DNA of 64,000 bases. Source: Nocardioides sp. (lineage in GTDB: Bacteria > Actinomycetota > Actinomycetes > Propionibacteriales > Nocardioidaceae). Shown piece by piece: positions 24,159-29,852 of the stretch; the first letter of the stretch is position 1; each line of letters begins with the position of its first letter. The stretch lies in the NCBI RefSeq assembly GCF_014360585.1, contig NZ_JACIXG010000015.1:1-64000 (forward strand), given 5' to 3'. The position numbers and the translations under genes are program-made. The notes below the pieces were generated by a model. That model was not told the origin of the DNA and searched no databases. It saw nothing but the letters and a program-made list of their open reading frames with translations.

Positions 24159-25403
24159 TCACCGAGGAGGCCGACGTGAAGCTGCTCGCGTACGTCCCGC
24201 TCGAGGGCTCATCACCCATCTGAGCGCAATGAAGCGGATCAGCGTGGCCGCGGCGTTGGCGGCCACCAGCACCGCCACCTCGATTCCGCGGGCCGGGATC
24301 GGTGCGGCCAGGTGGAGGAGCGCGAGCGATCCCGAGGTCAGTACCAGCCCGACCCCGAAGGCGGCCAGCCCGGCGACGTGGTGCTTCACCGCACCCTGTC
24401 GCGCGGTGATCCCGAAGGTCAGTCGACGGTTGGCAGCGGTGTTGCCGATCGCGGTCACCAAGAGCGCGACGAGGTTGGCCGCCTGGGCGCCGACGGCGGT
24501 GCGGAGCAGCACATAGAGGACGAGGTACGCCAGTGTGCTCATCACCCCGACCGCGCCGAACCGGATCACCTGCGCCGCCAGGCTCGGGCTCCGGACGGGC
24601 CCGGGAGGACGTACGCCGCTGAGGTCGATCCGCCCGCTGACCAGCCCGAACAGGAGTCGTCTGATCCCGTCGAGGTCCTCCTTGATCGTCGTGACGATGT
24701 CGACGCGCGAGTCGGTGTCGTCGACCCAGTCCACCGGCACCTCGTGGATGCGCAGTCCGGCCTCGGAGGCGATGACCAGCAGCTCGGTGTCGAAGAACCA
24801 GCTGTCGTCGTCGATCAGCGGGAGCAGCTTCTCCGCGACGTCGCGCCGGATCGCCTTGAAGCCGCACTGGGCATCGGTGAACTCCGCGGACAGGACTCCC
24901 CGCAGCAGCAGGTTGTAACCCTTGGACAGGAAGTCCCGCTTCGGGCCTCTCACGATCCGGCTGCCTCTCGCCAGCCGGGTGCCGATCGACAGGTCGGAGT
25001 GTCCGGACAGGAGCGGGGCGAGCAGGGGCGGCAGGGCCCGTAGGTCGGTGGAGAGGTCGACGTCCATGTAGCCGACCACCTCTGCCTGCGAGGATCTCCA
25101 GGCAGCCTTGAGCGCTCGACCACGGCCCTTCTCGTCCAGATGGACCGCGCGTACGCGGCCGAGCTCGGTCTCCAGCCGGCGGGCGATCTGCCAGGTGGCG
25201 TCGGTGCTGGCGTTGTCGGCGATCGTGATCGTGGTGGAGTAGGGCAGCTGCCGGAGGTAGTCGTCGAGCCGGCGGACGGCCCCCTCCAGACCCTGCTCCT
25301 CGTTGTAGACCGGGATCACCAGATCGACCGCCGTGCCGACGCGCCCGGAGGTCGGGGTTGTCGATACCGTCCCGGGGCCGGGCGACATCTGCTCGGCGGT
25401 CAC
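24159..25403 (-). CDS. GT2 glycosyltransferase fused to GtrA-like membrane domain
   Basis: A 414-aa protein. The N-terminal GT-A domain resembles dolichol-phosphate mannose synthases: VDLVIPVYNEEQGLEGAV, ADNASTDATW, GRGRALKAAW, the metal-binding GYMDVDLSTDL, and DAQCGFKAIRRDVAEKLLP. The C-terminal 150 residues hold four hydrophobic segments of the GtrA type (VIRFGAVGVMSTLAYLVLYV, NLVALLVTAIGNTAANRRLTF and two more). It probably makes a polyprenyl-phosphate sugar and helps flip it for the adjacent GT39-type enzyme. Its GTG start overlaps the stop of that gene by four bases, so translation is coupled. Confidence 0.88.
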   Translation of the reverse strand: MTAEQMSPGPGTVSTTPTSGRVGTAVDLVIPVYNEEQGLEGAVRRLDDYLRQLPYSTTITIADNASTDATWQIARRLETELGRVRAVHLDEKGRGRALKAAWRSSQAEVVGYMDVDLSTDLRALPPLLAPLLSGHSDLSIGTRLARGSRIVRGPKRDFLSKGYNLLLRGVLSAEFTDAQCGFKAIRRDVAEKLLPLIDDDSWFFDTELLVIASEAGLRIHEVPVDWVDDTDSRVDIVTTIKEDLDGIRRLLFGLVSGRIDLSGVRPPGPVRSPSLAAQVIRFGAVGVMSTLAYLVLYVLLRTAVGAQAANLVALLVTAIGNTAANRRLTFGITARQGAVKHHVAGLAAFGVGLVLTSGSLALLHLAAPIPARGIEVAVLVAANAAATLIRFIALRWVMSPRAGRTRAASRRPPR

Positions 25404-27427
25404 GAGGCGCCCTCCGTCAGGTCGTAGACCGTGGCGTCGCCGATCGTGGTCTGGGTGAAGTTCTCCTCCACCCAGGCACGGATCTCGGAGGCGCTGGAGG
25501 TCTCGTCGCTGCTGCCTCCTCTGCCGCCCATGCCGCCACCGGAGATGAAGTAGTGGATCTCGCCGTCGGCGACGTACTGCTGGAACTGCTCCAGGGTGAT
25601 GCTGTTCGAGGTGCCGTTGAAGCCGCCGATCGCCATGACGGGCTCCTCGGTCTCGAGCTGGAGGCCTGCCGCGGTCTGCGAGCCGATCGCCGCGGCCACC
25701 CAGGTGTACTTGGCGGCGTTGGTGCTGACTGCCGCGGCGAGCTCGGCGTCGACCTGGCCGCCACCCATCGGGCCGCCGGCACCGCCCGCGGGCATACCGC
25801 CGTTGCCCCGCCTAGGCATCTGCCGGGTCTGGCCGTCTGTCTGGCCGTCTGTCTGCGGGCCGGGCACCTGGGTGCCGAGCATCTGGCCGGCCGGCGGAGT
25901 GCCGTTCCGACCCCCTGGCCCGCCCATCTGAGCGACACGCCCGCCGCCTGGCCCGCCCATGCCACCGCTCTGATAAGGACCGGCGGTCACGATCGAGCCG
26001 GTGTGTGCAGTGCCAATGGTCTGGATGGCGTACGCAGCAGGCCCGACGCCGACGGCCACGGCCGCCGCGGCGAGGACCGTGACCGCGGCCCGGCGGGTGA
26101 GCCTGTCGGCGAAGACGAACCCGGCGGCGACCCCGAGAGCGATGATGAGGACGGGCCAGCGCAGCGCGTCGTACGGCTGCTCACCCGACTGCCCGAGAAG
26201 CACCCATCCCCAGACGCCGCTGCCCGCCATCGCGACCGCCAGGGTGATCCGGGAGACGAGGTTGTCGCGGTCACGCCACAGGATCACCGTGCCGACGACC
26301 GCGGTGATCGCGATCCACGGAGCCAGCGCGACCACGTAGTAGTCGTGGTAGATGCCCGCCATGAAGGAGAAGACCAGCCCCGTGACGAGCATGGTGGCGC
26401 CGCTGAGCATCAGGGCAGCACGGGTCAGGTCGGTTCGCGGCGCCTTGCGCAGCGCGACGAGGCCGGCGACGAGGGCGAGCAGGGCCGCCGGGAGCAGCCA
26501 GGAGACCATGCCGCCGGAGACGCCCTGGAAGAGGCGCAGGATCCCGGCAGCGCTGGAGAAGCCGGCGTTGCCGAGGCCGCCGAAGTCGCCGCCGTTGAGC
26601 CGGCCGACGCCGTTGTAGCCGAGGGTCAGCTCGAGGAGCGAGTTACCGGTCGAGCCGTCGATGTAGGGGCGCGCGGACTCGGGGAGGAACTCGACGATCG
26701 CGACGTACCAGCCCGCGCTCGCGACCATGGCCGCGACACAGGCGACGCCGTGAGTCAGCCTCCTTCCGAAGGAACCCTTGCCGGTGACCAGGTAGACGAC
26801 CGCGATCGCCGGAACGATCAGGAACGCCTGCAGCATCTTGGTCAGGAAGCCGAAGCCGAGCAGCACACCGGCCAGCACCATCCATCGGCCCCTGCCCGTC
26901 TCGATCGCCTTCAGCGTCGAGAACCCGGCACCCACCAGGAGCAGGAGCAGCAGCGCGTCCGGGTTGTTGAACCGGAACATCAGTGCCGCCGCCGGGGTCA
27001 GCGCCGTGAGCGCCCCTGCCACGATCGCCGCCTGCCACGGTGCGACCTTCTTCACCATCGCGAAGACGAGCCACACGGTGCCCACACCCATCAGCGCCTG
27101 CGGAGCCAGGATGCTCCACGAGGAGAGCCCGAAGATGCGTACGGACAGGCCCATCACCCACAGCGAGGCGGGTGGCTTGTCGACAGTGATCGAGCCGCTC
27201 GCGTCAAGCGCCCCGAATACCCATGCCTCCCAGCTCTCGCCGCCGGCCTGGGCGGCTGCGGAGTAGTACTGATTGGCGAAGCCCGACTCCGACAGCGTCC
27301 ACAGATACGCCAGACCAGTCAGGGCGAGCAGAATGATGAGGGATGCCCGTTCAGGGGTCGGGCGCCAGGATCGTTGCGGCACCGGCGTCGGCCGGCTGGT
27401 CGCCTGGGGGTCGAGGAGTGTCGTCAT
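25400..27427 (-). CDS. GT39/ArnT-like membrane glycosyltransferase with Gly/Met-rich insert
   Basis: A 675-aa polytopic enzyme of the PMT/ArnT (GT-C) type that transfers a sugar from a polyprenyl-phosphate donor on the outer face of the membrane. The acidic first loop SITVDKPPASLWVMGLSVRI and about eleven TM segments fit the family. After the last TM comes a low-complexity stretch rich in Gly, Met and Pro (QSGGMGGPGGGRVAQMGGPG, then TDGQTDGQT). A folded extracellular tail of about 120 residues, including VMAIGGFNGTSNSITLEQF, follows. ATG 27427 (MTTLLDPQATS) is preferred over the open upstream frame. It is coupled to the GT2-GtrA gene, which likely supplies its donor. The acceptor, protein or glycan, is unknown. 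Confidence 0.87.
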   Translation of the reverse strand: MTTLLDPQATSRPTPVPQRSWRPTPERASLIILLALTGLAYLWTLSESGFANQYYSAAAQAGGESWEAWVFGALDASGSITVDKPPASLWVMGLSVRIFGLSSWSILAPQALMGVGTVWLVFAMVKKVAPWQAAIVAGALTALTPAAALMFRFNNPDALLLLLLVGAGFSTLKAIETGRGRWMVLAGVLLGFGFLTKMLQAFLIVPAIAVVYLVTGKGSFGRRLTHGVACVAAMVASAGWYVAIVEFLPESARPYIDGSTGNSLLELTLGYNGVGRLNGGDFGGLGNAGFSSAAGILRLFQGVSGGMVSWLLPAALLALVAGLVALRKAPRTDLTRAALMLSGATMLVTGLVFSFMAGIYHDYYVVALAPWIAITAVVGTVILWRDRDNLVSRITLAVAMAGSGVWGWVLLGQSGEQPYDALRWPVLIIALGVAAGFVFADRLTRRAAVTVLAAAAVAVGVGPAAYAIQTIGTAHTGSIVTAGPYQSGGMGGPGGGRVAQMGGPGGRNGTPPAGQMLGTQVPGPQTDGQTDGQTRQMPRRGNGGMPAGGAGGPMGGGQVDAELAAAVSTNAAKYTWVAAAIGSQTAAGLQLETEEPVMAIGGFNGTSNSITLEQFQQYVADGEIHYFISGGGMGGRGGSSDETSSASEIRAWVEENFTQTTIGDATVYDLTEGAS

Positions 27428-27528
27428 GGCGACCACGCTCGTGCGGTTGGCTGTGCTTGTCGTACATCGAGGCTGTGGTGTGACTATGGGTTGATCTGGA
27501 GTTGAGATTGGCGAGACCACCCCGCCCC

Positions 27529-27654
27529 GGTGGTCGAGCTTGTCGGCCCCGCCCCGCTGGTCGAGCCGCCGGAGCCGCTAGGCGGAGGCGTGTCGAGACC
27601 AACACGGCTCCCTGTCGGAACGGCTAGCTCCCGGTGGTCGAGTTTGTCGAGACC
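27529..27654. repeat. REP-like cluster with half copy of the nested-palindrome element
   Basis: Three pieces lie in a row: a partial GGTCGAGCTTGTCGG (27529-27546), the half element 27559-27605 from GGTCGAGCCG to GTGTCGAGACCAACAC (identical in reverse complement to 50-96), and GGTCGAGTTTGTCGAGACC (within 27633-27654). The second inner arm of the nested element is missing here. Confidence 0.75.
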
Positions 27655-27715
27655 TCCCTGCCGGAGACCTTTCGCTCGAAGGTCGGTGTGGGCCGCCGAC
27701 CCTTCTTCGAGAGTG

Positions 27716-27804
27716 TTCTCGACATGCCCCGGAGTCAAGGACGGCCTACGGCCGCCGGCTACGCCGGCCGCTACGCGGTCCTGGACACCGGACCATGTCG
27801 AGAA
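27716..27804. repeat. 89-bp cloverleaf-shaped inverted repeat
   Basis: Terminal arms TTCTCGACATG (27716-27726) and CATGTCGAGAA (27794-27804) are perfect 11-bp complements. Further in, CCGG/CCGG, GTC/GAC and AGGAC/GTCCT continue the stem, with only four mismatched positions among 27. Inside it, with no unpaired base, are three consecutive hairpins, each with a TAC loop: GGCC-TAC-GGCC (27743-27753), GCCGGC-TAC-GCCGGC (27754-27768) and CGC-TAC-GCG (27769-27777). It could be a structured RNA, a DNA cruciform or a small non-autonomous mobile element. Confidence 0.7.
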
Positions 27805-28042
27805 AAGATTTGGCTGGCTATCGGGGCGGCGGCCCGGGTGTGGCGCAGCGCATTCATGCCTCGGAACGGTGACGCGCGTGGGGTGGAAGGGGTGGCCCTT
27901 CGGGCCACTTACCATCCACAGGTTCGCCACCGTTCGCTCACCGCGAAAAGTAGGTTTGACCTGCGCAGATAGGTGTCCAAGGAGGTGTGGAGGAGGTAGA
28001 ATCGGAGGCACTACGACGCGCCTTTGAAGGGAGGTGACAGCC

Positions 28043-29305
28043 ATGAGCATCGACCACTGGGGCACCAGCCCTGGAGACCTCGTCTCGTCGGCTCTTGCTG
28101 CCATCGAAACCTCCCTTGAAGAGCTCCTTGCGATGGACCCGATCTACTGGCGCACCAGCCAGAAGAAGGACTACCTCGCGAAGGTGGAGAAGCTCCAAGC
28201 CCAGCAGGCCGCGTTGACGCTGCGAGTGCTCGCTGCCTCAGGGGACATCGCGGAAGAGACCGGCGACAAGGACGCCTCGGCGTGGATGCGCGCCGAACTG
28301 CTCGTCGACAAAGGTGTCGCGCGGTCGCAGATCAAGCTCGCTGCGGGAGTGGCGAAGTACGAGTTGGTCGCTGCCGGCCTCGCTGAGGGCGTCGTCTCTC
28401 AAGAGAAAGCCCGGATCATCACCCGCGCCTTGGACAGGGTCGAGGCTGACCCGTTGGCCACCGCCGAGCATCTGGTCTTGGCTGAGAAGCTGCTGGTCGA
28501 GTACGCCACCCAGTTCACGCCCAAGGAACTTCGGATCATCGGCAAGCGGATCCTGGTCGAGGTCGACCCCGCCCGGTTTGAGGAAGCAGAAGCCAAAGCC
28601 CTCCTCGCTGAAGAGGAACGTGCCCAGCAGAAGACGGCGCTACGGGTGTGGGACAACGGCGATGGAACCGTCGGGTTCGAAGGGGTTCTCCCGACATCGA
28701 TCGGGATGCGGTTCAAGAAGCAGGTCGAGGCCTGGGCCCAGCCGCGTAAGCAGCAGCTCGTGGAGAAGGGTGCTCCGTTGCCGCCGTGGGAGCGGTTGAT
28801 GGGGCAGGGGTTCGCGCGGTTGATCGAGACCATCGATCCGAATGCGCTGCCCCGCCATGGTGGTGACGCGACCGTGGTCAACGTGGTGATCTCGCTCGAG
28901 GAGCTCCGCAAGGAGCTCGGTACCGCCACGTTGGGGTTCGATGAGACCAACGGGACCACGATCACCGCCGCTGAGGCCCGACGGATGGCGTGCAACGCCA
29001 CGATCATCCCGTGGGTGTTGGGTGGTGACAGTGAGGTGCTGGACATGGGCCGGGCCAGCAGGGTCTTCGTGCCGATCCAGCGCAAAGCGCTTCGGTTGCA
29101 GCAGAAGTGCTGCCAGGCCGAGGGGTGTGACATGCCACCGGAGTGGTGCGATGCCCACCATTTCAAAGCCTGGGCCGCGGGCGGAAAGACGGACCTGAAG
29201 GACGGGGTCTTGCTATGTCCGCACCATCACCGTCTGGCGCACAACCCTGCCTACGTTCATGAGCGGTTGCCCGACGGCACCGTCCGGTTCACCCGCCGCC
29301 CCTAA
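28043..29305 (+). CDS. DUF222 / HNH endonuclease domain protein (13E12 repeat family)
   Basis: A 420-aa protein. The N-terminal 300 residues are alpha-helical DUF222 sequence (DLVSSALAAIETSLEELLAM, SAWMRAELLVDKGVARSQIK, ALDRVEADPLATAEHLVLAEK). The C-terminus is an HNH nuclease fold: CCQAEGCDMPPEWCDAHH and DLKDGVLLCPHHHRLAHN, giving the zinc-holding Cys pairs and the His residues of the active site. Proteins of this kind occur in multiple copies in Actinobacteria as the 13E12 repeat family; their role is not settled, with mobile or defence functions proposed. ATG 28043 has GGAGG 8 nt upstream. The surroundings are unusually rich in repeats, which fits an accessory locus. Confidence 0.9.
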   Translation: MSIDHWGTSPGDLVSSALAAIETSLEELLAMDPIYWRTSQKKDYLAKVEKLQAQQAALTLRVLAASGDIAEETGDKDASAWMRAELLVDKGVARSQIKLAAGVAKYELVAAGLAEGVVSQEKARIITRALDRVEADPLATAEHLVLAEKLLVEYATQFTPKELRIIGKRILVEVDPARFEEAEAKALLAEEERAQQKTALRVWDNGDGTVGFEGVLPTSIGMRFKKQVEAWAQPRKQQLVEKGAPLPPWERLMGQGFARLIETIDPNALPRHGGDATVVNVVISLEELRKELGTATLGFDETNGTTITAAEARRMACNATIIPWVLGGDSEVLDMGRASRVFVPIQRKALRLQQKCCQAEGCDMPPEWCDAHHFKAWAAGGKTDLKDGVLLCPHHHRLAHNPAYVHERLPDGTVRFTRRP

Positions 29306-29392: not shown

Positions 29393-29572
29393 GCTCCGCT
29401 TGCGCCATGCGTCATCGATGTGGACCTGGGTGCATCGCGTCAACGCTCGGATTTCGTCGAGCCCATTCTCAGAAGCGTTAAAGCACTCACGCTCTCCTCC
29501 ATCGCCCACCGCGGCCATGACTCCTCGGACCCTGACCGCCCGTCGGGCCTGATGCTCCCGAGCCGGCGGCAC

Positions 29573-29676
29573 TTCCCCACTCGTGCAGATCTCTCCCCAT
29601 CCCAACGCAACTTCCCCACGCTCCGGAAGATGGGGAAGCTCCGTGAGAGTGGGGAACGGTGTGGACGAGTGGGGAA
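29573..29676. repeat. 104-bp imperfect palindrome with six TTCCCCA/TGGGGAA motifs
   Basis: TCCCCA cores start at 29574, 29594 and 29613; the reverse form TGGGGA starts at 29631, 29650 and 29670. The steps are 20, 19, 18, 19 and 20 bp, symmetric about the centre. The outer 12 bases on each side, TTCCCCACTCGT and ACGAGTGGGGAA, are perfect complements; the inner arms match only partly. The spacing of nearly two helical turns would place all sites on one DNA face. No function is known. Confidence 0.65.
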
Positions 29677-29695
29677 CGAGTCGTCCGCCAGATCA

Positions 29696-29730: not shown

Positions 29731-29852
29731 CACTGGCGTAGGCACCGACGACCTATGCCCCTTGCCCCAGCAGCACACCGGCCACCACTCCCAAGCCCGT
29801 GCCGGATTGAATCCGCTGCGCCAATCCCCGCCGCCGATCAGCCCCGAAACCC

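Follow-up and report, generated by a model that had tools for sequence, protein, structure and literature searches.

A self-folding DNA cloverleaf as the likely end unit of mobile 13E12-type DUF222-HNH elements in Nocardioides

Several families of bacterial repeats and recombination sites are built around DNA that folds upon itself. REP sequences and BIMEs, with their Y1-type RAYT proteins, and the IS200/IS605 elements share folded-DNA ends, an arrangement as inverted pairs, gene-less derivatives and a location in intergenic sites. Integron attC sites are imperfect palindromes of considerable length; they fold as a single DNA strand and have extrahelical bases. We are aware of neither an established function nor a mobility signal for 13E12 (DUF222-HNH) genes. 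The excerpted text of one study describes gene conversion in REP13E12 genes, with a hotspot in M. tuberculosis (PMC13061034). A literature search of titles and the openings of abstracts returned nothing describing cloverleaf element ends of the kind reported here.

The DNA analysed, referred to as the window, is a 64,000-nucleotide stretch of the genome of Nocardioides sp., in which an initial annotation, made from the sequence alone, had noted a cloverleaf-like inverted repeat upstream of a 13E12-type HNH gene. Comparison of copies shows the repeat unit upstream of the gene, often with an inverted copy downstream in the window's own kind of element, termed family 1; in a second kind, family 2, there is one unit and the gene. 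Within this clade, sequence comparison gives good support to the cloverleaf as the end unit, at the DNA level, of a mobile DUF222-HNH element in family 2 and makes this likely in family 1. The data suggest that self-folding DNA assists the spread of the 13E12 gene family, and the element is read here as self-homogenising. Action of the HNH protein on the fold is the preferred inference, with a separate recombinase as the main rival. The complete proposal, of a DNA-level end structure for a mobile element whose sole gene is a 13E12-type DUF222-HNH endonuclease acting on the fold, is judged to have about an even chance of being correct.

The 89 bp inverted repeat at 27716-27804, with its arms, inner stems and three abutting TAC-loop hairpins that leave no unpaired base at the junction, was recovered just as annotated (Table 1). 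The cloverleaf is its minimum-energy DNA fold (-33.6 kcal/mol, z -7.2), equalled by none of 200 shuffles, so that pairing far beyond chance was borne out. RNA parameters gave a different optimum, a single irregular hairpin (-57.2, z -7.9). A scan for closing stems of at least 4 bp that enclose three abutting hairpins, each of 4 bp or more, found this architecture once in the 64 kb window and in none of five mononucleotide shuffles of it. The window copy has a single mismatch in its stems, an A.G in GTCAAGGA/TCCTGGAC, at a position paired in 32 of 35 aligned copies. While the annotated limits fit the fold itself, they are too narrow for the repeat, as conservation between copies covers approximately 27690-27835, including an outer inverted repeat. 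No Rfam match reached the gathering score in the window, the annotation likewise having named no known RNA family, and a known RNA or tRNA was discarded as a candidate there; neither an intrinsic terminator (a GC-rich hairpin preceding a T run) nor a sigma-70 promoter was found in 27500-28100.

Table 1. Features of the element in the window, with positions counted from the first nucleotide of the 64,000.
Feature	Position	Strand	Basis or remark
Left end unit, type A	27690..27835	+	Outer inverted repeat around cloverleaf and conserved GGCTGGCTATC segment
Outer inverted repeat of left unit	GGGCCGCCGACCC 27690-27702 / GGGGCGGCGGCCC 27823-27835	+	Copy comparison
Cloverleaf core	27716..27804	+	DNA fold; structure scored over 35 copies
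Core outer stem	27716-27726/27794-27804	+	DNA fold; 35 copies
CCGG stem	27729-27732/27788-27791	+	DNA fold; 35 copies
GTCAAGGA/TCCTGGAC stem	27734-27741/27779-27786	+	DNA fold; 35 copies
Three abutting hairpins	27742..27778 (27742-27754, 27755-27767, 27768-27778)	+	TAC triloop each, GTA on minus strand
REP-like GGTGGTCGAG..TGTCGAGACC palindromes, outside left end	27526..27664	+	Repeat comparison
DUF222-HNH (13E12-type) gene	28043..29305	+	HNH metal-ligand residues intact
GTGGGGAA-type palindromic spacer, downstream of gene	29570..29680	+	Present in other copies too
Right-end remnant, inner arm CGCTGCGCC..CCGCCGCCGA	29814..29837	+	Comparison with G476 copy

The start of the enclosed gene was taken as the ATG at 28043, the open reading frame program having placed it at the GTG at 28034. 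In Pfam searches its product alone gave no match to DUF222 and an HNH match below the cut-off (E 0.011). A Foldseek structure search gave no match at E <= 0.001. A protein 62% identical to it (L031) matches both domains; among 28 aligned proteins 26 match DUF222 and 12 match HNH, and C356, C361, H371, H372, C391 and H395 are invariant in all 28. The annotated position of the cloverleaf upstream of a 13E12-type HNH gene stands, with membership of the 13E12/DUF222-HNH family assigned through these relatives. The REP-like palindromes outside the left end are common elsewhere in the genome and hence not strictly part of the element. On the right, comparison with the copy in the relative G476 shows the second cloverleaf unit to be missing at 29837/29838. 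The two sides of the window element resemble the flanks of different G476 elements: upstream, past two additional genes (24159-27520), the match is to L265, and downstream it is to L225, such that the window element may be a recombination junction between copies.

In a search with 27690-27830, a roughly 145 bp unit whose core is the cloverleaf was located at no fewer than 40 places in the window's own genome (G000), 40 being the number of candidates scored, with reverse-strand matches of the same places excluded; L285 is a further copy. These have differing flanks, the pattern that the annotation had proposed would mark a mobile element, and the 42 aligned rows have in common the roughly 145 bp unit with its outer inverted repeat. 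Five close relatives each have tens of places (44 to 86 model matches, palindrome strands counted separately), and 13E12/DUF222-HNH genes are likewise multicopy, five genomes having 14 to 33 matches apiece. In a wider model search with strict filters, matches were found in 5 of 149 genomes sampled from the family and 2 of 296 sampled from the phylum, counting the window's own genome. Several contig ends of G000 fall in or near a cloverleaf (L007, L008, L025, L053, L292/L293), as though sequencing or assembly halted at the fold. A variant approximately 24 nt longer is seen among right-end cloverleafs (L042:579, L132:3913-4026, L146:3923-4035, L230:6526-6638, L240:6899-7012, L249:5668-5782 and L266:5074-5188), and the first four, when their sequences were read, had a REP-like stretch inside the core stem.

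The unit is closely associated with DUF222-HNH genes in this clade. In G000, such a gene lies between two inverted copies in six stretches (L031, L032, L033, L034, L041, L042), the gene match being in two pieces in L033 and L042, and in G443 inverted pairs surround the gene in all eight stretches chosen as pairs (L267-L274). Eighty loci of named Nocardioides were divided into 31 near and 38 distant, with 11 omitted as their gene lay at a contig end. Among the near loci, from the N. albus/luteus clade, 30 have the unit upstream of the gene (the exception is L147), 12 have an inverted downstream unit, 11 have both and none has the other orientation, two of the 31 offering little downstream sequence. 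A solo repeat independent of the gene is therefore rejected for the N. albus/luteus clade, where fold and 13E12 gene belong to one repeated unit. Only one of the 38 distant DUF222 loci (L192) had the fold in a model search, and an energy scan of them found no consistent fold; the fold cannot thus be a hallmark of all DUF222 genes. Five distant DUF222 genes lacking a cloverleaf (L195, L151, L161, L165, L173) have inverted repeats of another kind, 42-131 bp in length, on their two sides. A separate observation concerns seven G476 DUF222-HNH matches that are interrupted by some 1.3 kb, always at one position of the HNH motif (L225, L232, L243, L248, L251, L257, L265): five of the inserts were compared and are 99.6-100% identical, and that in L232 reads like what we take to be an IS110-family transposase.

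Three possibilities stood side by side in the annotation: that the repeat is a structured RNA, serves as a cruciform target or belongs to the non-autonomous elements. For covariation, 35 copies were used, being the 42 rows less four (three truncated or rearranged, one with an insertion) and three duplicates. Stem cells were paired in 94.0% of cases, against 87.6% in shuffles, and 77 showed double changes, against 22.3, so that the covarying stem substitutions anticipated by the annotation are present; the number of pair types was not above shuffles (21 against 21.0). When 170 rows were pooled from four alignments, three of them model-fitted and so biased towards the model, the 6165 stem cells comprised 5815 Watson-Crick pairs, 23 G.T, 88 A.C and 239 others. 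Covariation with one-strand wobble tolerance was thus not seen in these cells, and the lack of preference for G.T speaks for DNA. Among 167 distinct copies, 134 parse into three perfect hairpins and 33 do not. Of the 402 loops, 374 have three bases; 365 of these triloops are TNC and six, in rows of alignment A5, GNA. A TNC loop is a GNA loop on the opposite strand, and DNA mini-hairpins of the form C-GNA-G are very stable. A melting temperature of 88.5 C is given for a CGCGAAGCG-type hairpin in the excerpted text of PMC10527192.

Further indications come from losses at the right end. At one site beside a LytR-type gene, compared in six genomes, the window lacks the whole unit, G443 lacks the fold from its base and G532 has lost the inner part of the fold, while the unit is intact in G476 and G487 and intact with an insertion in G456. 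Such losses, found in three of the six right ends and lying one within another in a single hairpin, point to formation of the fold in cells. The lack of wobble tolerance, the GNA-type loops of the minus strand and these nested hairpin deletions together favour DNA, as a cruciform or folded strand, over RNA; of the annotation's three possibilities the cruciform is accordingly favoured, the non-autonomous form does occur and RNA is disfavoured. It is very unlikely that the unit encodes a leader or guide-like RNA for the HNH protein to use, in the manner of the omega-RNA upstream of IscB. Such an RNA would suit a unit lying upstream of an HNH gene, and the HNH part of L049 shows a weak similarity to IscB (E 7.6e-05, 22 bits against a cut-off of 175), but the rest of the protein matches DUF222 rather than IscB. 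The rarity of G.T, an RNA energy optimum that is not the cloverleaf and the lack of an Rfam match in the window all count against such an RNA, and the inverted downstream copy would be antisense.

The same covariation could have arisen in a palindrome that has no selected function. Template switching gives double changes without wobble intermediates, as are seen here, and an old palindrome might be kept perfect by such quasipalindrome correction while carried along with a recombining repeated gene, an account with which the clear conversion-like patterns among copies would also agree. We regard this as improbable: correction should erase mismatches and bulges, whereas mismatches and an asymmetric CCTCT bulge, the latter conserved in G072, G129 and G005, persist at the same places, the TNC loops are kept in nearly all triloops even though their middle base is free, and the core stem recurs in a contig of a Mu-like phage.

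Evidence for mobility of the end unit and its gene is most direct in family 2. The flanks of eight family-2 elements of G476 were searched in seven genomes, and empty counterparts were recognised for four sites, with flank gaps of 328-634 bp compared with 2152-2160 in G476: L238 is empty in G487; L241 in G000, G532 and G443, with another short sequence instead; L247 in G487, G500, G532 and G456; and L264 in G487, G456 and G443. Intermediate gaps were counted as neither empty nor full (L241 in G500, G456 and G487; L247 in G443; L264 in G500), and L246, L253, L255 and L260 had no recognised empty counterpart in the seven genomes. A suggestion that L265 and L248 were G476 elements absent from the window's own genome was not upheld. 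For family 1, the window element included, no clean empty site was obtained; G500 and G452 lack the element at the LytR-type site, but the region there is otherwise different too. Neither in G072 and G443 nor in the comparisons with empty sites was a target-site duplication recognised, the intergenic flanks having diverged too far. The two families also differ in their limits. Family 1 often has inverted units at both ends, and in G443 homology starts, as judged by eye, some 10-25 bp outside the unit. All 11 family-2 copies examined have one unit only, and homology ends at the stop codon of the gene in seven of them, three having a further common downstream gene and one a truncated gene.

Copies of the gene also appear to exchange sequence. 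At seven sites common to G000 and G476, recognised by at least one flank at 91-96% identity among matches of at least 90%, the genes are 84-86% identical, and by tree and identities the best copy in the same genome is closer than the copy at the same site in 13 of 14 comparisons (7/7 for G000, 6/7 for G476). Such a pattern would be expected from gene conversion, or if insertion had recurred at these sites.

Whether the enclosed protein or a factor acting in trans mobilises the unit is the main point of competition. The annotation's suggestion of an enzyme encoded elsewhere gains from pairs of units without a gene, in G000 (L035) and G500 (L275-L277), and from units or pairs without one in G072 (L098, L101, L103), which make the non-autonomous form real; it loses in that fold and adjacent 13E12 gene form one unit in this clade. 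In the gene-less elements L035:10014-10610 and L058:2950-3490, strong internal palindromes such as CGAACGAAAATTCGTTCG were observed. The trans-acting alternative, a REP/BIME-like folded-DNA repeat served by a recombinase or host factor, with the DUF222-HNH gene as an often-framed passenger, is somewhat improbable. Besides the gene-less copies, it would accommodate the 37 distant DUF222 loci without the fold and the REP-like palindromes at the termini of G072 elements. Against it, DUF222-HNH recurs inside elements throughout the clade studied, and G072 and G129, with very different sequences, retain the same layout, with a DUF222-like gene near their divergent fold in five of 15 stretches (L106, L108, L110, L111, L112); the other ten, all among the 12 from G072, gave no DUF222 match with three queries. 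Mobilisation by a Y1/RAYT protein was rejected: PF01797, the recombinase family searched, had no match in the window's own genome (a draft of 160 contigs), and the control search gave matches in five of 14 genomes. The genome G186, from another family, has a single cloverleaf with three TTC loops (L115:2035-2113, E 4.5e-4) in a stretch with no DUF222 match.

The phage contig bears on the same alternative. Viral contigs were scanned for the pattern, yielding 18 stretches, and IMGVR_UViG_3300043244_000125, a Mu-like phage with a Mu-type portal gene, has three cloverleafs with perfect stems and the same GTCAAGGA/TCCTTGAC stem (L312:101-157, L312:6594-6650 and L314:6772-6836). Three queries detected no DUF222 in the 18 stretches, about half of this contig being covered, and its fold accordingly weighs against a strict tie to DUF222, as the passenger alternative would have it. 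Among 216 viral loci (1.9 Mb), taken from the matches listed and filtered on structure, only three folds were found, all in one contig; the fold of L301 is similar but imperfect and was excluded from the count. Searches of plasmids and GenBank phages had no match at E <= 0.001, and the L049 DUF222 protein had none among the viral contigs.

Returning to the preferred reading, with the DUF222-HNH protein acting on its own ends, the unit would fold when its DNA becomes single-stranded or supercoiled, and the GNA loops would favour the minus strand as the folding strand. The HNH protein might then recognise the folded unit or junction and nick or cut there, and the element could be both spread and homogenised when another copy serves as the template for repair, or through its insertion at a break. 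A bolder version, which we put forward tentatively, is that DUF222-HNH proteins are the predicted mobility enzymes of an undescribed class of elements, cutting at or near a GNA-triloop cloverleaf to drive insertion and genome-wide conversion of their own gene, and that the role of the GTCAAGGA cloverleaf as a recombination signal extends more widely, to phages too.

With its ends defined in structure, and with derivatives that lack the gene and sites that lack the element, the function of 13E12 becomes a testable question. The mycobacterial REP13E12/13E12 repeats share the DUF222-HNH protein family and the multicopy state with the Nocardioides element, and gene conversion is described in them; they were compared by description only, and the excerpted text makes no mention of a terminal cloverleaf (PMC13061034). 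Cloverleaf ends could bear on the gene-conversion hotspots which that excerpt describes for the related repeats of M. tuberculosis. As with HNH homing endonucleases, an HNH gene appears to be spread and homogenised by recombination, although no intron or intein is involved here and the compared sites are intergenic and differ. IscB and its omega-RNA similarly combine an HNH gene with an upstream structured element near one end; in this case, by contrast, Pfam assigns DUF222 and HNH, and the structure behaves as DNA. Like attC sites, as these are described, several unit families have a conserved extrahelical stretch, the CCTCT bulge, yet the Nocardioides units differ in framing a gene. REP/BIME-RAYT systems and IS200/IS605 share with the Nocardioides element their folded ends, inverted pairs, gene-less derivatives and intergenic sites; it is distinguished from them by a four-way cloverleaf in place of one hairpin, the lack of a Y1_Tnp match in its own genome and the DUF222-HNH gene that it encloses. 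A conserved four-way DNA fold as the end of an element would enlarge the small set of folded-DNA recombination signals.
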